Shown: piece by piece, positions 2,935 through 15,370 of the stretch
Numbering within the stretch: the first letter of the stretch is position 1
How the letters are laid out: each line of letters starts with the position of its first letter
Assembly: GCF_025602895.1 (NCBI RefSeq)
Contig: NW_026516315.1
Location: 1-64,000, forward strand
From: Polychytrium aggregatum
Taxonomy: Eukaryota > Chytridiomycota > Chytridiomycetes > Polychytriales
DNA length: 64,000 nt
Direction of reading: 5' to 3'
The notes under the pieces: generated by a model
Told to the model about the DNA's origin: nothing
What the model saw: the letters and a program-made list of their open reading frames with translations, nothing else
Databases searched by the model: none
Made by a program: the position numbers and the translations under genes

Positions 2935-3581
2935 GGGGTGCACGAGCGGGGACGGCTGGAGGCAGCAGGCGACAGAGGAGGACAGGGGCGATCGACGGCC
3001 TTGGGACCAGACGGGGACAGGACACCTGAAACGTGGGTGAACGACGGCGATGGCCGGTGTCGGGACAAGCGGTGGCGAGAGCGGTGCGGCCAGAGAGGAG
3101 TGCTGAGGGCCAGAGCCGAGCGAGCGGCGAACAGCAACAGGGAACCAAGCGAGACCAGGCGCAAGTGCTTGGGCAGACCAAGTGCGGACGGTGTGCGGCT
3201 CATCTGCGGCCAAAGGAGATTGGGTCCAATTCGCAAGCCGATCCATGCATGGCCGGTCTGCGCGCACGTTTCGGGACGGCGTGCATTTCGACGACGCGTG
3301 GCTGCCACGGGGCGGGTCTGGCCGGGCCGGCCGCTGCTTGTTGCGGGCGCACCCGCTGCCGATTCGGGAACGGCCGCCAGTGGCCCAAGGGATGGGCTTT
3401 GTTGTGCGGGCGGTGTGCGAATCGCGCTTTCCTGATTACCATCACCACCATCACCACCACCACCACCACCACCACCATCATCACCATCACCATGAACTCT
3501 TCCGCTCGTGCATCCACCTCCGGCCGGTCGCCGAGGCAGAGTGTATTGCTCCATACAGGACTTGCGCACGTCGGCTGTCGC
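2935..3581. other. Intergenic region between the DUF726 gene and kynureninase, with a CAC/CAT microsatellite
   Basis: This is the upstream region of the DUF726 gene and the downstream region of kynureninase. It contains a trinucleotide array (CAC/CAT, about 3439-3493). That array gives a poly-histidine reading on the plus strand, but I see no domain or splice structure to support a gene. Confidence 0.6.
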
Positions 3582-6022
3582 TCAAAGCGTGGCGGCCAGA
3601 GCCTCGTCCAGGCACCGGAAGAACTGGTACACATCCGCAAACGAATTGTACAGCGGCGCGGGGGCGACTCGGATGACATCGGGCTTGCGCTCGTCGCAGA
3701 CCACTCCGTGCTCAAGCAGGCGCTCAAACACAGGCATCATCCGCCCTTCCTCCAGGAACAGTAGCGAGAGCTGGCAGCCGCGCTGCGACTCGTCCAGAGG
3801 CGTGATGATCCGGAGGCGGCCCGGGTACTTGTCCTGCAGATGCTCGACCAGGAGCTCCAGGTATGCCGTCAGTCGGACCGACTTGTGGCGCAACGAGGCC
3901 ATGTCGGTCTCGGCAAACACCTGCAGGCTGCCGAGCAGGGCGATGGTGGCGAGCACCGACGGGTTGGACAGGCGGTATCCGGCAGCACCGGCAATCGGCT
4001 CGAACTCGTGGCTCATCTGGAACTTGGTCGCCGGGTTGGTGCCCCACCACCCAGCAAACCTGCATGCGAGAAAGACGCATCGTGCCATCAGCCAACCAAC
4101 ACGCAGCGACATCGATCCAGCTCGGCTGTCGCACTGCAAGACCCACCTGGACAGCGAGCTATCGCCGGCATGCTTCGAATGGACAAATGCGCCGCCTGGT
4201 CGATTCGAGCAAGTCAGTGCACCGAGCTTGCAGTTCCCAACCACAATACCCACTCGAATGTGCCGCTACGCCGCCGTGCATTTGGCACTTACCGATGCCG
4301 CCAGGACCAGAGTTGAGGTACTTGTACGAGCACTGAGCGAGCCAATAGCACATGTAAGCCACCCTGCCATTCACAGCCGAGCAGTGCATCGACACTTGCT
4401 GCCAGTTTCCGACTGTGGCTGTCCGACAGACAGCGATTGCTCACCCAGCAGGCAAAATCGACTTGCCAACGATGCAACTCCAGCGGGACGTTGCCGACAG
4501 CATGCGCCAGATCGACGCCGATGAGACAGCCCTGTCAAACACAGCAAAACACAGATACAACCACGGAAGCCGTTAGTGTGCATCCATGCTCCAAAGACGA
4601 TATTGCACAAGTGCAGAGCGCTTGCTGCTCGACAATCGGCGACGCAACAGAGTCTGTCGGCTGGCTCTGTGACAGCCCATTGCACATACCTGTTCGCGCG
4701 CCGCCTGAGCGATGGCCTCGATATCAAAGAATTGGCCCGTGTAGTATTGGATGCCGCTGATGAGTACCAGGGCCGTGCTTGATCCTTCGCGTCGGATGGT
4801 TGCGAGAATGTCCTCGGTTCTCAGTGCATATTCGCCGTCGCGAGGATCGATCTCAACGATGGTGGTCTTGGGATCGAGGCCATGGAACTTGACCTGCGAC
4901 TCGATGGCATACTGGCAGGGAAGAGCATCCACGATCGTCAGCGACAGACCTTATGGACTGAGTGACCGGGAGCGACACCGCAACCCTCCCCCAAGGACAG
5001 CCCATCGGTCGCTCCGAGACGCACATAGTCGGATGGGAACGCCTTGCCCTCCATGATGATCTTGAATCGCTCCGTGGTGGGTCGGTAGAATGGCACCATC
5101 AGAAGATGCACATTAACCGTGAGGCTGTTCATGATGGCAACCTCGTCAGGCTCGGCACCTAGGTCGATGTGACGCAGAGAAACAAATGTCTGAGAGGCTG
5201 GACCGCTGCGTGCAGTTGCACGACGAGAGCAATGTCTGCCGACCAATACGGCCGTTGTGCTGCCCGCAAGTATGCGGGGCCGACTCCCTTCGGTGGCAAT
5301 GGCTGTCGAAGATGCTCATCGAGTCGGCGACGACGACAGAGGATGCCGACAACGACAGGATGCCGACGACGACAGAGGATGCCGACGACGACAGAGGATG
5401 CCGACGACGACAGAGGATGACGACGACTCACCCACGATCCTTGCGCTTTCTTCGATGACATTATCGTCGATAGAGACCCAAGGACGGTCGAACTGATGAT
5501 TGAAGTGTCCATGGACGCCGCTGGCGAGCCAGAAACGAGGAGGAGAGAGTGCAGAGATGGTTGAGCCTATAGCCGAGGACCGGGGGCCAGTCTTGGGCGG
5601 GCGAGTCGGCGGGCGAGATCAGGATGCTTTCTGCACAATGAACGACATCGATTGCATCGCTCGGGTGCTCGCCAGACATGCCGCTGATCTGCTTGGGACA
5701 CAAACCACTGAGCCCAGATCTGGAGCTCCTGGTCAAGCAGAGCCTTGGTGCGGATGGGCTGCAGACCAAGCGAGTTGCCGCACAGATAAATAGCCTCGTC
5801 GTCGCTGCTGCTGCTGCTGCCATCAGGATGGCCCGTCTTCGAGGGCAACCCGACACTGGCAGAGTGGCGATTGATCGCCGCCACCGAGGGGATATGGAAC
5901 TCTTTGCGGAAACGCTGGAGAGGATCGAGGCGGTCGAGGTGGCGGGGCAGATCGGGATGGTCGATGCCCTGGAGCGAGAGCTCCGCAAGCGTATCCAGGA
6001 TCGAAGTGCGTCCAACACCCAT
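3582..6022 (-). CDS. BNA5: Kynureninase (L-kynurenine hydrolase, EC 3.7.1.3)
   Basis: PLP enzyme of tryptophan breakdown and de novo NAD synthesis; it converts kynurenine or 3-hydroxykynurenine to anthranilate or 3-hydroxyanthranilate plus alanine, normally in the cytosol. Eight exons with matching phases: 6022-5706, 5520-5432, 5158-5025, 4911-4690, 4531-4445, 4332-4293, 4195-4147, 4059-3582. They total 1416 nt or 471 aa, the usual family length. Motifs in order: [85 protein letters not shown], the PLP-lysine motif [21 protein letters not shown] and FAGWWGTN, then [17 protein letters not shown]. The start is the first ATG before the conserved N-terminus. Intron 2 (5431-5159) holds a tandem repeat. 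No frameshift or missing catalytic residue was seen. Confidence 0.93.
5332..5420. repeat. Minisatellite in kynureninase intron 2
   Basis: About four imperfect 18-21 bp units built on GACGACGACAGAGGATGCC lie inside the 273-bp intron. The array is direct and head-to-tail with no unique spacers, so it is a minisatellite and not a CRISPR. Confidence 0.8.
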
Positions 6023-8497: not shown

Positions 8498-9024
8498 GGG
8501 TGCGACGAGGGAAGGGTGGGGAGCAGAGAAGGGTCGGCCGGGAGGGAGCGACGATGTAGGAGAGTCGAGCAGAGGCGGCAGCAGACGGGAGCAAGACCAA
8601 GACCAAGAAAAGTGGGAGACTTTGGATGCAGGGGTTGTGGGCCGCTGGATGCGTGGCTGAAACGAAGGCGTGGACAGACATATTAAATTCATATCTGGGC
8701 AGCGAGACCTGGCGAGAAGGCGGCGAGGGGCGGGGCGGGGCTGGTGCTGGGGCGGGCGGCCGTTCCCACAAACCAAGTACCCGTCGAGAGCGAATGTGAC
8801 CGACTGACTGCTGTGCCGGGATTCCGAGGACATGCACATCCCTCCGGTGTGTCCCAGGGCATTGCTGTTGGACTGGTGGAAGCAGGCATATGTCCGAACC
8901 CCGCGGCGGTGATGCTGGGACGGCAGCGCAACGCCCCATCCACCACAGCATCGGCACGGCGCTTGGCTGGATCAGATATGTATTCGAATCGTTCGTCGCT
9001 CGCTGCCACAGCGCAGGCTGTCGA
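8498..9024. other. Intergenic region upstream of the DUF1769 gene
   Basis: About 530 bp between two minus-strand genes. No supported gene. Expected content is the DUF1769 promoter and the 3' UTR of the CREST-like gene. Confidence 0.5.
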
Positions 9025-10072
9025 TCAAACGCTGAGCACAAGCCCCACTGTGTGCGAGATGCTGACAAGCAGCGAAACCCCTCCAAATAAGTGCCAGAAC
9101 GAATGCAGGCACGCAAAGCGCATGCGATCCGCCGCAAAGCACAGCAGTCCAAGACAGCCAAAGGCCAGACCGCTGTAGCATCCAACCGAAGCGAACCCAC
9201 AGGCAGCCATGGGAAGCCCAAGGGCAAAGAGCCAGACAGCGATCGAGCCAGTGGTTTCCCACTGCCAGATGAACAGCAGCAGAATCACGGCTGCTGGCAA
9301 GATCCACACGGCCTCGAGCATCCAGATGCTGTGGGAGTTGGGCGAGTGTCGGTTCAGGGCGACCGAGTTCTAAATGATCCGAACCGAAACGATGCGAAAC
9401 GAAACGAAGCGAGGTAACACGTCCGCGAGAGAAGTGGGTCAGTTCCTCGCTGTGCTGTGGGCATCCCTCACAGGGCAGTACAAGTGTATCAGTGCAGCAC
9501 TTTTTGCAGATACGCCTTCGAATGAGCGACGGTGCGTGGGGTAGTGGACACTGCACCCATACCAGATAGAATGTCATGACAGCAAAAGCCTCGTCGGCTG
9601 CCGAGAATACCCGGTAGTTGGTCATATGGTAGACGGTCGAGGCCACTGCACACACGCAGGTGGCCAGGATGCAAACGTTCAGCAGGAGCGGAATGCGGTC
9701 GATCGGCACATAGAGGTATATGATCAAGGGCAGGCCAAACAGCGGCGACGTCATGGTGCACCAGAACTCGGCTGGAGAGGTCGCATTGTGGAGATGCAAA
9801 GCGACAGGGTCAGTAGCGAGTCAGTGGTTGTTGTGGGATGGGGCATGAGTTCTCAGACTCAAACTCGGGCAAGCCACTACTTCGGAGCCGATGCTGGACA
9901 TTCCTTCTCCTATCGATAGTGCAATCGCTCGCTCTCCGCAGTTGGAAGAATACGTTGGATCCGGGATCTGTGCAGCGCTCCACCTGGGTCCCGGGTACAT
10001 ACCGACCCAGGCCACGATGCTGTACTTTTGCTCCATGGTCGTGATCTCGGCTTCGGCAACCATGCGCTGCAT
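9025..10072 (-). CDS. CREST-superfamily membrane protein (TMEM8/myomaker DUF3522-like)
   Basis: Three exons (10072-10003, 9771-9563, 9369-9025) with matching phases give 207 aa. The protein is almost entirely hydrophobic, with about seven membrane segments. Early residues read EFWCTMTSPLFGLPLIIYLY. The CREST signature follows: a Ser-x3-His pair (STVYHMTNYRVFS), an Asp about ten residues later (SAADEAFAVM), and near the C-terminus the HSFWH pair (RFACLHSFWHLFGG). In CREST proteins (alkaline ceramidases, adiponectin-type receptors, TMEM8/myomaker) these Ser, Asp and His residues form a zinc site or hydrolase centre. The short length with almost no soluble domain is closest to myomaker or the TMEM8 core. 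An alkaline-ceramidase relative is the main alternative. The substrate is unknown. The ATG at 10072 is the first in frame; 10063 and 10036 are alternatives. Confidence 0.65.
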
Positions 10073-11379
10073 CAGCGAGCATCTTGTTCTGCCCAAGGCG
10101 CCCTCCGTGGTATTCTATCGCGGTTGCAGGAGCAGTTGGATGAGCAGAGGCGCCGTTCGAGCAGAGCACGTCAGCAGAGTGTTTGATTTGGAAGACTGAC
10201 GACAGGCCACAGCAAGCATGCTTACTCGAGTACAGCAGCGGAAGACTCGATCATCCTTCTCGATGGAACTGGATACACAGGGCATCGGCATATTAGCCCG
10301 GGACTACAGCAGGACGCAGTGCCGCAACTGGTCTTGCCCCTATGGCAACCTTCCATTCTGCAGCCAGGGGATGCATCAGGCCGCCGCCCGAGATTCCATT
10401 TCATCCAGCCTGTACCTGTAGGACTTGCTGCAAACCATCGGCATGCTTTCGGATTGATTCCCGGCAGGCTCTCGCACGCTTTCGCAGCAATCCGCAACGA
10501 AATTTTGTGTGTCGGATGTTGACAATGCGGGTCACTTCGACACGGGGATGCCTTGTGTGGATCAAATGTTGTTGATCGGCCGACCGGCTGAATGACATCG
10601 ATCGGCGCTCGCACTGTTGCGGTGAGATGTTGGAGTCTGAGGACAACTCCATTCAATGGACGACTCGGGAGATGCTCTGACAACGACTTATCTATTCAAC
10701 ACGCTGCGTTGACGATGCAGAATCATCCATCTCGCAGACGATCCCGCAGACAATCTCCGTTATATATTCAGGAGGAGCTTCACCCAGCAGCGACGGCCAA
10801 TCGAATCCGTCTCGATCGCTCCGGCCTAGAGCACAAACGGAAAGCCAGACGATGCACCATCGGAGGGCGTCACCATCGGCGGACGTCGTCAAGGAATGTG
10901 GGATGTGTGTTGCGAGGCTAAGTGATCTGGACAGATGCATTGAGTCAAGATCAACAACCGGCCTGCAACCTGCAATAGGTTCTTGCCCCTTTCATAACTA
11001 AAACGCACACTGACGAAAGACAGAATCGACTTTGCCGGCGGAACCTGTCCGCCAGTGTCGCCAGACTCGGGGCGCGAATCAAGTCGTGATGTAAAAGCTG
11101 CAGAAGGCGGGTGCTGCGACGAGGACACGAGGAGAGAGCAAATCGCTTGTGGCGACGCCGGAATCATAGTGGCATTTGCCTCGTGTCGCCAGAAGGCCGC
11201 TCTCGCCGGTTCCAAGCGCAGGCCGGATCGATGGAGATCCGACCAAGGCAAACCGCGGCAACAACCCGATGACGATGAAGGTGTGATCGATTGCAGCGGC
11301 GGTCGGTGTGGAATGTGCATGTGGAATGTGCATGTGGAATGGGAATGGGGAATGGGATGGGTTGTTTGAGGAGTTCAGG
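10073..11379. other. Gene-poor region between the CREST-like gene and the Fanzor locus
   Basis: About 1.3 kb with short overlapping frames on both strands but no family motif and no convincing exon chain. It may contain the CREST-gene promoter and decayed 5' sequence of the Fanzor element. A short AATGTGCATGTGG-type tandem sits at about 11313-11360. Confidence 0.45.
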
Positions 11380-12925
11380 TTCTTTCTTTCATGGGTTGAT
11401 CCAGAAGAACAGACACCCCTCGGGTTCGCTGCCCGAAGGCGCGATGGTTCGCTATTCGCATCACATAGTCACAGCGGCTCTCATCACGAAAGCTCAAGAC
11501 TGCCGGCTTAATTGCTTGCGGTGATAACTCGACGAGCAAGGCTGGAAGCGGCGGCGGGCAAGAATTTATCGTTCGGTCGATGTGGCTTGGACAGCTTCGC
11601 CACATCAATTTTTTCCGGCCCTCGCGGCTGCTCATCTCGGTCACCTGAAAGTCACGTTGTATGTGGCGCAGCAAAAGTTGGAATCCGGCCATGGTCTGTT
11701 GACGGCATTTGATATCACCTTGAGCCGATTGACAGTGGTGGTGGGCGATTGGTGTGGAGGAATGACCAATTGTATCATTGTTGGAAGCTCCACTCCGATT
11801 GCGGACAAGAACCTCCACCATCTGAATCTCTCTGGTTGGAAACCTAGTCAAGCGTGGCTGTGTGTCAGCGAGATGACATGATCGTTTGGCTATCGGGCAA
11901 GACTCACCTTGACAAGATGTCTTCCCACGACTGATTGAGCGAGCGATGCGTTTCTGGATCCGAATCGAGGACGCCACTGTGAACAACACCGCTGCCAGCC
12001 CAAAATGCGCTGGTTTTGAGGAGAATTTTTCTTCCCCAAGGGCAGAACCAGCCATCGCTGCTATTTTCTCGCCAGATGGCTCCCCGCAAGCGAATGACGC
12101 CACCCAGGCGACCAAGTGGATCCAGAGTACCCACAAGATCCTTGGTCTGCAGCAATGGATGAGCACCACACCAAGTCCCAAGATCCCTGGGTTGGATCCC
12201 TTCCTGCAATACATTCGCCATGTGTTCGATGGAGACATGCTGGACAAACAGCTGTACTTCAGCCTGACCCGGCGACGGCGATTCAAGCGACTCGATCTCC
12301 ACAGCAAGCGACAGCGCACTGTCCACGAGATGTGCAAGCAAGTCATCGACCAGGCACCACCGGAGACCGAAGTGGTGATTGCCTTTGGGAATGCATCCTG
12401 GAAACAGGGGAAGGGATACGCATCCAGTCCCAGGAGACTCAGGTTTGCCAAGTACTTTGAGCAGTTCCACCACCACCAGAGACGCCCACCAGACCGACCC
12501 GTCTCCAAGATCCATGTGTGCTCGGTGAACGAGTTCAACACATCCCAGGTGTGCTCACACTGCCAGGAAACCAAGCGACTCGAGTCACCCGAGCATCTTG
12601 ATATCGAGAAACCACACTTTGTCCGGAGCTGTGCAAGCTGCCATACGCCGTGGGATCGAGACATCAATGCAGCCAGGAACATGATCTCGGTATGCCAGTC
12701 GATCATCGCCACAGGAGATCGACCGGGTGTATTCAAGACTGTGCTTCCGGACCCACCCAAAACCACTCGATTGCCAACGAAGACAGGAGTGCAATGCCAT
12801 GGCCTACCCGCTGGGCCTACAAGTCAGTCAGCGGGCTTCAGATATCTGAAGCCAGAAAGTGACTGTCCCGTTTCTTTATGGATAGACTGTAAGTATCTCG
12901 AACTGTTCCTTGTGCATTTCGACAG
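11380..12925 (+). pseudogene. Fanzor (eukaryotic TnpB/OMEGA-like) RNA-guided nuclease, decayed copy
   Basis: The longest open part (from 11946) encodes the C-terminal half of a Fanzor-type protein. Visible blocks are an Arg/Lys-rich helical stretch (RRRRFKRLDLHSKRQRTVH), the RuvC-II-side block EVVIAFGNASWKQGKGYASS, a VNEFNTSQ segment (12520s-12540s) leading into a four-cysteine zinc finger (CSHC at 12552-12563, CASC at 12630-12641), and WDRDINAARN (12651-12680) carrying the RuvC-III aspartate. Upstream, a plausible RuvC-I segment (VDPEEQTPLGFAARRRDG, near 11397) is followed by LSSRKLKTAG and GWKRRRARIYRS, but these lie in different frames, separated by stops. TnpB/Fanzor proteins normally have DPG at RuvC-I; here it is DPE. 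I therefore read it as a degenerate copy, though unrecognised introns could explain some frame changes. No N-terminal domain was found. The right end is set from similarity to the fragment near 38.1-38.5 kb. Confidence 0.72.
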
Positions 12926-13303
12926 TGGATGCCGGGTCGCCCATATTCTGGGCAGTCCACTTCGGGGTTGCCATCCCTCTTGGGATGGTGATGGGAGGTG
13001 TTTGACTCTCTTGTGCAAAGTGTGTGTGTGTGTGTGTGTGCAAAGTGTGTGTGTGCAAAGTGTGTGTGTGTGACGGCGAGAGGCTTCTCGCCTTCCCTCG
13101 GGGGTCTCTCGTCAGAGACTGCTCTTCTCGCCAACCGAGGTGGCTCCGAGAGCGCGTTTTTTCGTTCTCGCTCATTTTTTTAACAAGAAATTTTTTCATA
13201 GTGTTCGCCACATCGGAGATCACGCACCCCGGTTCCCACGGACGATTCCATCTGCTGATTGTGGTGGTTTCGGTGTATTGGCAAGCAGACAGCGGCCGCG
13301 GCT
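12926..13303. other. Spacer after the Fanzor element with (GT)n tracts
   Basis: Contains (GT)n blocks interrupted by GCAAAGTGTG units (about 13019-13073), just beyond the inferred element end, then the 3' flank of the BFR2 gene. No gene seen. Confidence 0.6.
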
Positions 13304-15370
13304 CTATCCAAAAACTTTCAGGCCATCGTTTGTGATGGGAATGTCGCCCGAGTTGGCTGGCCCCGTGCCGGACACGCCCGCCGAGCTGCCCGAGTGTTTG
13401 CCCAGCAGGCTCTGGAAGAGCTCCGAGATCATCTCCTCGTGCCACGAGCCCCGAGGCTCCGGCGCCATAAAGTTCTGCAGCTTCTCGATGACATGGTATC
13501 GGATCTTGCGGCCCTTGCTGGCCTTGGTGTCGACGTTGGCCTTTTTCTTCTTGCCCTGCAGCTGCTTCAGCTGCGCCCATCGCATCGACAGCGCCACCGG
13601 ATCGTCGGTCTCGGTCATGCGCGACTCGATCAGCTCCTTGAGCAGCTGCTGATAGTAGTCCGAGTCATCAAAGATCTCGGCGTCGTGGTTGGCAAGGTGG
13701 GCGTCCGCCTCAGCCACATCGGGTTGGGTGCCCTCGGCTTCGTCGCTTGACTTGGAGGCGGCCTGGCCAAGGGTACGATACTCCGATCGCTTGAGACGTG
13801 TGCGCTTGACAAGTCGCTCGCGGTCGTTCATGATCGTCTTGATCTGGCTGAGGACACTCTGCGACCCACGCGTATGCAGCAAGTGTTAGCGCACGGCTTT
13901 CCATTCGACTTGAGCACCGAGTCACTGGGCTAGCCATCGATCCACGCCGGCCGGTGGTCGCACGACTACTGGGCTCAGTCGTCCTCACCTGGTTGATCGA
14001 CTTGAACTTCTTGTGGAGCGGAATGCCGCTGGCTGCCTGCACCTTGTTGCTCCACTTCTCGATCGTGGTGTTTCTGTACGCCTGGAAGGAGGTGTCGAGC
14101 TCCTTGATGTCTGTCCACATGGAGCCCAGCAGGCTGTCGGGGTCATCGTAGTCGTACTTTCGTTTTTTTGACGATATCTCGGGCGTCATGGTGACTGTGT
14201 CGTTCTTCGAGACCAGTTCCTGTTTGCGAATGATGAGCGTCAGGAGAGGCTCGTGGGGAAGATCTTGGCGGGGCAGAATAATCCAGGCGGCAATCCGGAC
14301 ATCTGGCTTCTGACACAGGCAGCCGAATTACCTTTCGGAATTCCAGAAGCGATTCGACGAGCGATCCCAGGCCGCGGGTGGCGGCGTTCAGATCCTGAGC
14401 AGTCTCTTCCTTGGCTGGAGCGTGCTCCATGAAGAGTGGATACACGTCGTTGTGCGGGAGTCGGTTGGCGATCGTCGCGACTTGCTGCATTCGGATTCGA
14501 CAATCGAGCAGGGTCTCCCAAATATTCTGCATTTGGGCATGGTGTTAGAAGCCAGATGGGAAGTATCGTGTGTAGACAGCGAAGGAGCCCAGGAGACGCC
14601 CGCCGATGTGAGCAAGCAAGATGCCGGACTCCAGCCGTTCAAGACCAAGGGTTCTGAAAATGCAACTGCCGATCAAGAAAACAAACGAACCATCTGATTT
14701 CGGACGTGCCGGCCCTTTTCGGCATCGCCCTTGGCCGTCTGGGAGAGTGTCTTTATCAGCTTGCTTTCCTCTGCCTGGAGCTCGGCGAGTTCATCAGCCA
14801 GCTTTCGGCCCTCACGGTCGTCGTAGCCCCCATCGCCATATTCATCCTCGTCTTCTTCTCCATCTTCGTCCTCATCATCGTCCTCATCATCGTCCTCGTC
14901 CTCATCATCGTCATCGTCCTCATCCTCGTCATCGTCATCCTGATCCTCATTATCGTCATCTTCTCCATAGTCATCCTCATCATCGGCGCTCGAGGGCTCG
15001 TCTGCATCGAACAGACTCTTGCGATTGGCACGCTTGCCCGCATATTTTGGGTCCTCCACTATCGAGCCGATTTTGGTGCGGATCGAGCTTCGGCTGCATC
15101 GGGGAGGTCGCGGCGATTTGGATAGCATCGTCAATACGCTGCTCAATGATGCGACGCCGCGCGATGCTATCGATAACAATACGACACTCACCCAACATCT
15201 ACATAGTGTTCTCGCCCGGCATCCATATCCTGGTCATCCAGGAAGGATTCGTCGGCGGGCCGGTCAAAGGTCGAGAAGCCATCGGCCTTTTCGGGATCGA
15301 ACGTGGATGGGGCCGGGTTGGCCAGATCGGTGAGCAGCTCGCCGAGGGTGCGCCGTTTCCGCGAGGTCAT
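13304..15370 (-). CDS. BFR2: AATF/BFR2 (Traube) family ribosome-assembly protein
   Basis: Nucleolar factor for early 40S pre-rRNA processing in the small-subunit processome. Five exons with consistent phases: 15370-15192, 15093-14691, 14526-14332, 14219-13989, 13858-13304, for 520 aa. It starts MTSRKRRTLGELLTDLANP, then EHYVDVG and SSIRTKIGSIVEDPKYAGKR. A roughly 45-residue acidic Asp/Glu tract follows, as in all family members. The AATF leucine-zipper-like block follows (DAEKGRHVRNQMNIWETLL with CRIRMQQ), and the C-terminal signature is VDTKASKGRKIRYHVIEKL plus QNFMAPEPRGSWHEEM and ELFQSLLG. Length and order match yeast Bfr2 and human AATF. The first ATG is used because it opens directly into the conserved N-terminus. 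No defects seen. Confidence 0.93.

Follow-up and report, generated by a model that had tools for sequence, protein, structure and literature searches.

A probable ghost Fanzor1 element on CACTA-type ends in Polychytrium aggregatum

Background

Fanzor1 genes, which encode eukaryotic RNA-guided nucleases, are carried by eukaryotic DNA transposons of other superfamilies than the one considered here, many of which lack a transposase gene (Bao and Jurka 2013, PMC3627910). The closest described system is Spu-1, the element of SpuFz1 in Spizellomyces punctatus, whose guide RNA (omega-RNA) adjoins the right end, and which is accompanied by many Fanzor-less copies with related ends; these "ghost" elements, 134 of them against 42 Fanzor loci, retain a similar omega-RNA region without the Fanzor open reading frame (ORF), and it has been proposed that they supply guides in trans (Saito et al. 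2023, PMC10432273). The locus described here lies in a window of 64,000 nucleotides (positions 1 to 64,000 of the forward strand of contig NW_026516315.1) from Polychytrium aggregatum (assembly GCF_025602895.1). It is a 1.6-kb repeat that we read, with a probability of roughly 80%, as a ghost Fanzor1 element on CACTA-type ends, derived from a single founder deletion and spread in trans.

The Polychytrium family resembles Spu-1 in comprising a Fanzor1 element with one ORF whose 3' region is kept in Fanzor-less relatives. The two differ in their ends, which are terminal inverted repeats of 30-33 bp with putative TA duplications in Spu-1, as opposed to CACTA-type ends with 3-bp duplications here. 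No transposase is reported between the ends of Spu-1, whereas Polychytrium has a resident CACTA transposase element whose terminal bases match, and the Spu-1 omega-RNA has been sequenced, whereas that of Polychytrium is predicted (PMC10432273). The SfAV Fanzor1 element is likewise non-autonomous and carries Fanzor1 only; its guide RNA, which was measured in that system, runs past the right end, with the target duplication taken into the scaffold by prediction, and its ends and host are different (Yoon et al. 2023, PMC10711439).

On the transposon side, the family compares best with CACTA elements. CACTA (EnSpm/CMC) transposons are marked by a CACTA terminus with 3-bp duplications, encode a Transposase_21 protein and give rise to internal-deletion derivatives. 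The Polychytrium family has the terminus, the duplications and the deletion derivatives, with a Transposase_21 element in the same genome; it differs in that the cargo is an RNA-guided nuclease and that it has only about 13 bp of terminal sequence in common with the autonomous element that was read. Literature searches pairing Fanzor with CACTA, EnSpm and CMC returned no CACTA-Fanzor association, though Jiang et al. 2023 might still contain such a link. The main text of Bao and Jurka (PMC3627910) names neither CACTA nor EnSpm, and the passages of the one listed paper, out of two that mention both Fanzor and EnSpm, name EnSpm-Plavaka and an uncharacterised Fanzor repeat separately; the single match for CMC concerns kinetoplastid screens, judging by its title. 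A search for Fanzor together with ghost elements led to Saito et al. alone (PMC10432273). The ghost class is of a kind already reported, and its combination with CACTA-type ends was not met in the literature searches made.

Results

A Fanzor remnant within a bounded repeat

The genome (64,678,306 bases, 418 contigs) was searched with window positions 11200-13000, and the best 40 of 1422 candidates were scored. Only one other place among them, C386:214156-215956, matches throughout (97%); since both flanks are common to it and the window (98.3% over 5 kb), this copy is either the second haplotype or a segmental duplicate. Most of the other scored places match window DNA only from about 11604 onward, and 18 further copies, read as stretches of 8.5-9 kb, match from 11596-11618 to 13182-13216 (L033 in two pieces). 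The homology of these other-site copies is bounded on both sides, and we therefore place the element at 11604-13203 on the forward strand, correcting the 11380-12925 given in an earlier note that had proposed a decayed Fanzor locus. The element belongs to a repeat that is present in many copies and has ends of the CACTA type (CACTATC...CATAGTG).

Inside it, an open frame of 386 codons (11913-13070, forward strand, first ATG at 11946) holds VNEFNTSQ-VCSHC...CASC-HTPW-DRDINAARN, and thus all the motifs that the earlier note had assigned to the frame from 11946. The Pfam domain Cas12f1-like_TNB (PF07282) matches this frame with 41.8 bits (E 1.2e-10) against a curated cut-off of 26.3. In a PF07282 search of the whole genome, which gave 663 first-look candidates, the window place scored 44.8 bits among the best 150, all of them above the cut-off, that were scored and listed. 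The Fanzor signal is not a product of chance, and the Fanzor derivation previously put forward is upheld by this match and by the fingerprint of the relatives described below. As had been supposed, the window copy cannot encode a complete nuclease: of the D-E-D catalytic triad, RuvC-I is deleted, and the alternative Glu, the finger and RuvC-III are left. The sequence formerly suggested as RuvC-I, VDPEEQTPLGFAARRRDG (VDPEEQ..., about 11395-11450), is indeed present; however, 150-200 bp separate it from the element, whose homology begins at about 11604. The upstream blocks in different frames, taken at the time for decay, are flanking DNA and the 5' noncoding region of the element. The frames at 11287-11508 and 11528-11878 matched no Pfam family up to E 1.

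The features of the window copy are as follows.

11596-11606 (+): damaged left junction, TTC (presumed 3-bp duplication) followed by GCCACATC, a right-flank copy replacing CACTATC; 11-bp direct repeat with 13204-13214
11604-13203 (+): 1.6-kb non-autonomous Fanzor element of the short class with CACTA-type termini, from homology limits and size class
11604-11700 (+): left terminal region, about 90-100 bp or more of it kept in all size classes read, including the 0.28- and 0.66-kb copies L046-L051
11750-11949 (+): conserved 5' noncoding segment, possibly a promoter (0.5-0.8% from consensus in 50-bp bins, 12 copies)
12076-12159 (+): original Fanzor start codon, now a 28-codon frame leaving the Fanzor frame past the deletion (ORF 11983-12162; alignment with L042 and L040)
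12095-12096 (+): deletion junction, about 1.86 kb gone relative to L042, beside a CCACCC microhomology found by eye
12096-12757 (+): C-terminal Fanzor coding remnant (RuvC-II region, alternative Glu, zinc finger, RuvC-III), with 87.5-94.7% DNA identity to L039-L043 over stretches covering it
12531-12533 (+): putative alternative catalytic glutamate codon (VNEFNTSQV-C), six residues ahead of the first zinc-finger Cys, by the rule of Yoon et al.
12552-12641 (+): zinc finger CSHC ... CASC (TNB domain, PF07282)
12654-12680 (+): RuvC-III motif DRDINAARN, from the translated frame
12950-12999 (+): low-divergence segment just ahead of a GT repeat, possibly the 5' part of the guide-RNA region (0.5% from consensus, 3/600 cells, 12 copies)
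13072-13175 (+): conserved GC-rich hairpin block, candidate omega-RNA scaffold
13176-13203 (+): right terminus, ...TTTTTTCATAGTG
13204-13206 (+): TTC, presumed right copy of the target duplication, beyond which the guide would lie by analogy with Saito et al. and Yoon et al.

Full-length relatives and the founder deletion

Intact relatives in the same genome, anticipated by the earlier note, do exist: in L039, L040, L041 and L042 the reading frame runs unbroken for about 850-930 codons, counted from the first ATG, which leaves no place for the introns once offered as an alternative to decay. The part common to the four, about 850 residues, contains two N-terminal Cys/His clusters (recognized by eye), a long middle part and then RuvC-I, TTWIGIDPGVGS, followed by VNEFNTSQVCSHC...SCHTLWDRDINA. 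IDPG stands at RuvC-I in all five relatives read there (L039-L043), and the alternative Glu precedes the zinc finger by six residues (E-FNTSQV-CSHC) in 4/4 aligned relatives, with VVIAFGN (VVTAFGN in L042) occupying the canonical-Glu place about 50 residues before the finger, as placed by eye. The longer relatives thus have DPG together with the alternative glutamate, the fingerprint described by Yoon et al., and a zinc finger longer than is allowed by that study's search expression for TnpB-like proteins, and they fit the Bao-Jurka motif D-X(125,275)-[TS][TS]-X-X-C4 finger-X(5,50)-RD (D582, T780 S781, C784/C787, C810/C813 and R819 D820 in L042 numbering). The non-IS607, CACTA-type ends and the length of the protein (about 850-930 aa, compared with 477 aa for a separate IS607-type frame of this genome), with its long N-terminal part, point to Fanzor1 rather than Fanzor2. 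Since the ratio of nonsynonymous to synonymous substitution rates (dN/dS) ranges from 0.28 to 0.46 over the six pairs among the four copies, the full-length protein has been under purifying selection.

Pairing of 100 of the 145 left ends with 100 of the 122 right ends, both haplotype copies being counted, yielded at least 65 elements: 4 at 277-294 bp, 2 at 664-667, 27 at 1435-1638, 1 at 2613, 19 at 3330-3448 and 12 at 3699-3875. These define size classes of 0.28, 0.66, 1.6, 3.3-3.45 and 3.7-3.9 kb, and the window copy belongs to the 1.6-kb class, which retains the C-terminal part of the Fanzor ORF. In the 0.28-kb copies the left end is reduced to about 90-100 bp and the right end to about 200 bp. 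Aligned with three longer copies, 21 of 21 short copies have their largest gap in the same place; because this junction is common to all of them, the short copies descend from one founder deletion. Relative to L042, the deletion runs from just past the start codon to beyond RuvC-I, so that the start codon at 12076 is out of frame and meets a stop after 28 codons. With the ends and 3' region of a Fanzor element in place and the full ORF missing, the window copy corresponds to the ghost class, and it is a precise internal-deletion derivative that multiplied, not as a gene rotted in place.

Other Fanzor-type sequences were seen in the genome. A separate family has a 477-aa frame in which an N-terminal stretch matching an IS607 recombinase (NF033518, residues 13-81, below cut-off) is fused to a TnpB/Fanzor2-type nuclease (NF040570, above cut-off); it lies at L002 1483-2916 (-), which is C124, with further 477-aa frames at L003, L006 and L007, and C124 and C379 each hold two such places in opposite orientation about 5 kb apart. 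A further Fanzor subfamily (L054, L055 and many other matches, frames of 800-860 aa) has about 73% DNA identity to the present one over 86 bp at the C-terminus and a different 3' end, no 3'-block match being listed for the two 3' ends read. In viral contigs, 41 pattern matches were found, none of which was confirmed.

Ends, target duplications and the resident CACTA transposase

Most copies start with CACTATCAATTTTTTCCGG and finish with AATTTTTTCATAGTG. With up to 3 mismatches, the 21-base left-end pattern occurs 145 times and the 24-base right-end pattern 122 times in the 64.7-Mb genome, against 0 occurrences for either reversed control. Both ends were recognized by script in 35 rows, representing 25 distinct sites (L020, L033, L038, L039, L040, L041 and L043, each with one end missed, were left out), and an exact 3-bp target duplication is present at 17 of these 25 sites (binomial p ~2e-25 against a flat 1/64). 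The combination of a CACTA terminus and 3-bp duplications, by which CACTA (EnSpm/CMC) transposons are recognized, is displayed by the family as a whole, the left terminus of the window copy being damaged. Sixteen of the 17 exact duplications begin with T, which may reflect a transposase preference or a nuclease-adjacent motif.

The left end of the window copy reads TTC-GCCACATC-AATTTTTT, where other copies have the target duplication followed by CACTATC-AATTTTTT, and TTCGCCACATC recurs right after the right end, forming an 11-bp direct repeat. The most economical explanation is that loss of the left tip was followed by patching with a copy of the target sequence, and because its left terminus is damaged the copy is probably immobile now. 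A patch resembling this one, TTG-TGGC-ATCAATT, was noticed in L021/L027. A Helitron-like junction or a duplication of 7-11 bp was also considered for the window and ruled out by the 25-site table, the 11-bp repeat being local to the window copy.

The CACTA transposase domain (Transposase_21, PF02992) has 29 matches in the genome, 28 of them above cut-off. One of those above cut-off lies in C113:315756-321445, an autonomous CACTA element resident in the same genome, which has in addition a sub-cut-off DUF4218 match, an ACG/ACG duplication, a left end CACTATGAAAAAAAAG (also written CACTATGAAAAAA) and a right end TTTTTTCATCGTG. About 13 terminal bases are common to this element and the right end of the Fanzor element. 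Their 300-bp ends have 18 different 8-mers in common, about 7 of which come from these terminal bases; the remainder, several of them from the 3' block, is about the number expected by chance, as estimated by hand. The genome thus holds Transposase_21, in one case within an element whose terminal bases match, and none was found inside the Fanzor elements.

The 3' noncoding block as a guide-RNA candidate

The 3' end had been pointed out previously as the place to look for a guide RNA, and it does hold a conserved candidate. The block at 13072-13175 is present in every size class read, including the six 0.28- and 0.66-kb copies (L046-L051). In anchored counts against the majority letter over 17 copies, L020, L033 and L038 among them, 13/1724 cells of the block (0.75%) are off consensus, compared with 381/10962 (3.5%) in the coding remnant (Fisher p 4e-12) and 112/6509 in the 5' noncoding part (Fisher p 0.003). 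The same counts give 110/3603 for 12770-12985, 68/1607 for the left end and 24/465 for the right tip. The finer profile used for individual segments covers 12 copies, with L020, L033 and L038 left out. A table from global alignment had made the 3' end the most variable region; this was put down to the broken ends of these three copies, and the anchored counts were used instead.

The 42-base core of the block occurs in 153 places with at most 3 mismatches, and in at least 100 of them exactly (all 100 that were listed), while a control 42-mer taken from the RuvC-III motif has 232 occurrences at the same threshold, 99 of them exact; these being different sets of copies, the block appears more conserved than the coding motif, but not hugely so. 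Folding of the block gives z values of -1.3 to -2.4. Two changes within the block are private to the window copy, for which the fold of lowest energy is unlike the main helix common to the four other copies folded. Rfam returned two matches, both far under the gathering score.

What we have at the position expected of an OMEGA (obligate mobile element-guided activity) system is hence a conserved and foldable block without covariation, and we infer that it is the best omega-RNA candidate in the element. In the SfAV system the target duplication is itself predicted to be part of the scaffold (Yoon et al., PMC10711439). By the same arrangement, the Polychytrium block would be the scaffold, the right flank would serve as the guide, and the guide would be used by Fanzor from intact copies.

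Occupied sites and exchange among copies

No empty site was found for any of the 19 insertion sites in a joined-flank search that scored the best 40 of 536 and the best 40 of 104 candidates, so that a miss is possible. Fourteen of the 19 sites are represented on two contigs, both occupied, and the other five (L029, L034, L036, L050 and L051) on a single contig. Five same-site pairs of 8.5-9.0 kb (window/L019, L021/L027, L022/L028, L023/L026 and L035/L037) have 56, 68, 38, 16 and 17 mismatches, of which 39, 53, 27, 9 and 17, respectively, fall in the element; in L035/L037 all 17 lie inside about 210 bp. Elements at the same site differ many-fold more between contig copies than their flanks do. 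Among the 145 in-element differences, 116 have both letters known from other copies and 29 (20%) are private, as compared with 502/1891 private differences (27%) in 25 random different-site pairs. At the L030 site, C378:245675-247237 holds 1563 bp and C364:243304-247178 holds 3875 bp, with identical flanks and a TCC duplication, and a piece of the 3875-bp element encodes the Fanzor N-terminus.

Ectopic gene conversion would explain the same-site differences, and short-read polishing of a repeat could imitate the base differences, less easily the length difference at L030. A bolder proposal is that the short copies are guide-only units, each of which would transcribe its 3' block into an RNA guided by its own right flank. 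With such a guide, the Fanzor of intact copies would cut the unoccupied allele and repair would copy the element in, so that CACTA transposons would bear a homing system driven in trans. This proposal would fit the lack of empty sites, the 1.6-kb/3.9-kb pair at L030 and the excess of in-element differences; double occupancy is not evidence of homing by itself, because insertions older than the split of the copies suffice, and we regard the proposal as unlikely.

Neighbouring genes

The right end of the element lies about 100 bp from the end of a frame at window 13304-13882 (-) for an AATF/BFR2-type protein (PF08164, TRAUB, 112.7 bits). At window 8975-9820 (-) there is a weak ceramidase-like match (PF05875, 20 bits) that stays under the cut-off.

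Discussion

The observations above are best accommodated by the following sequence of events. The longer elements (3.3-3.9 kb) carry the Fanzor nuclease gene of about 850-930 codons and are probably moved in trans by a CACTA transposase, since L042, read whole, shows no transposase and no other frame of at least 300 aa. Among the two longest classes, L042 was read whole with both ends, together with L040, and the 3.7-3.9 kb class was read in pieces. One long element would then have lost about 1.86 kb between short microhomologies, and with it the N-terminal half and RuvC-I, its start codon being put out of frame. This founder would have been mobilized in trans to many sites, the window copy among them, in which the right end, the greater part of the left end and the noncoding block on the 3' side are still in place. 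We further infer that the mover is the resident CACTA transposase family.

Several results speak against this scheme. No element with both Fanzor and transposase was found, and none of the 29 PF02992 matches lies within 6 kb of the 100 block cores listed of the 153. The flanks of L040, which is outside the 25 sites, read ACC and ATC by eye and do not match. Searches of solved structures by sequence reached no PDB chain of a solved Fanzor, the weak matches obtained being led by LaTranC, a TnpB-like protein and Cas12m (best E 0.055). As for the block, its structural support is modest (z of -1.3 to -2.4, and -1.6 for a longer stretch of 465 nt); none of 32 pairs is compensated in 18 sequences, because there is almost no variation among them; and the 200 bp of 5' noncoding sequence at 11750-11949 are about as conserved in the 12-copy profile.

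The main rival of the omega-RNA proposal is that the block binds transposase. Internal-deletion derivatives of DNA transposons are commonplace, and the short copies could be ordinary derivatives of this kind, resembling miniature inverted-repeat transposable elements, which make no guide RNA and whose 3' block is the subterminal binding region of a CACTA transposase. The CACTA-type ends, the 3-bp duplications and the lack of covariation all suit this account, as do the TCTCGCC motif, repeated three times forward and once in reverse in the last 300 bp of the element, and 8-mers such as CTTCTCGC that the ends of the Fanzor element share with those of the autonomous CACTA element. Yet neither the first 300 bp of the Fanzor element nor either 300-bp end of the autonomous element contains TCTCGCC, and no copy of the block was found in the single autonomous CACTA element that was read, where the best local match is 16/17 bases. 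The very tip of the element, the expected transposase target, is among its least conserved parts (24/465 against 13/1724 for the block), and the position of the block agrees with that of the omega-RNA in characterized Fanzors. On balance we consider this account a serious contender that falls short of even odds.

The remaining alternatives bear on the coding remnant. A selected, truncated C-terminal protein of about 190-300 aa, for instance an inhibitor, might be suspected from the fact that 19 of 21 short copies are free of stops and frameshifts over 650 nt and from a dN/dS-like ratio of 0.37 for variants shared among 16 distinct-site short copies. Nevertheless, 48 of these 81 shared variants are also found in one of five longer copies, so that exchange with longer copies explains much of the pattern; the other 33 comprise 16 nonsynonymous changes, 16 synonymous ones and 1 stop, singleton variants have a ratio of 0.73, and there is no conserved start codon, the MRFW start of the window recurring only in L019 among the 17 listed frames of L019-L038. 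The mini-protein is thus not supported after comparison with the longer copies, and we deem it improbable. The broken upstream frames had suggested that one Fanzor gene was decaying where it stood, its RuvC-I lying at 11395-11450 in a different frame, or that introns had gone unrecognised; this is refuted by the location of the RuvC-I candidate outside the element, by the uninterrupted frames of the relatives and by the one junction in 21 of 21 short copies, and its chances are negligible. Equally far-fetched is a zinc-finger protein of another family. It is true that the expected profile match came only in part, the TNB domain alone passing a curated cut-off and the NCBIfam TnpB models matching the family below theirs; but the relatives carry both the published Fanzor motif and the DPG/alternative-Glu fingerprint, and no better-matching family was found in the Pfam and NCBIfam searches.

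Saito et al. (PMC10432273) regard the role of Fanzors for their transposons as unsettled. The Polychytrium genome offers about 150 copies (both haplotype copies counted), graded size classes, selected nuclease genes, one founder deletion and a resident CACTA transposase, and a possible spread of guide-only copies with help from the nuclease becomes testable in it. The CACTA link, for its part, would add a transposon superfamily to the known carriers of Fanzor.
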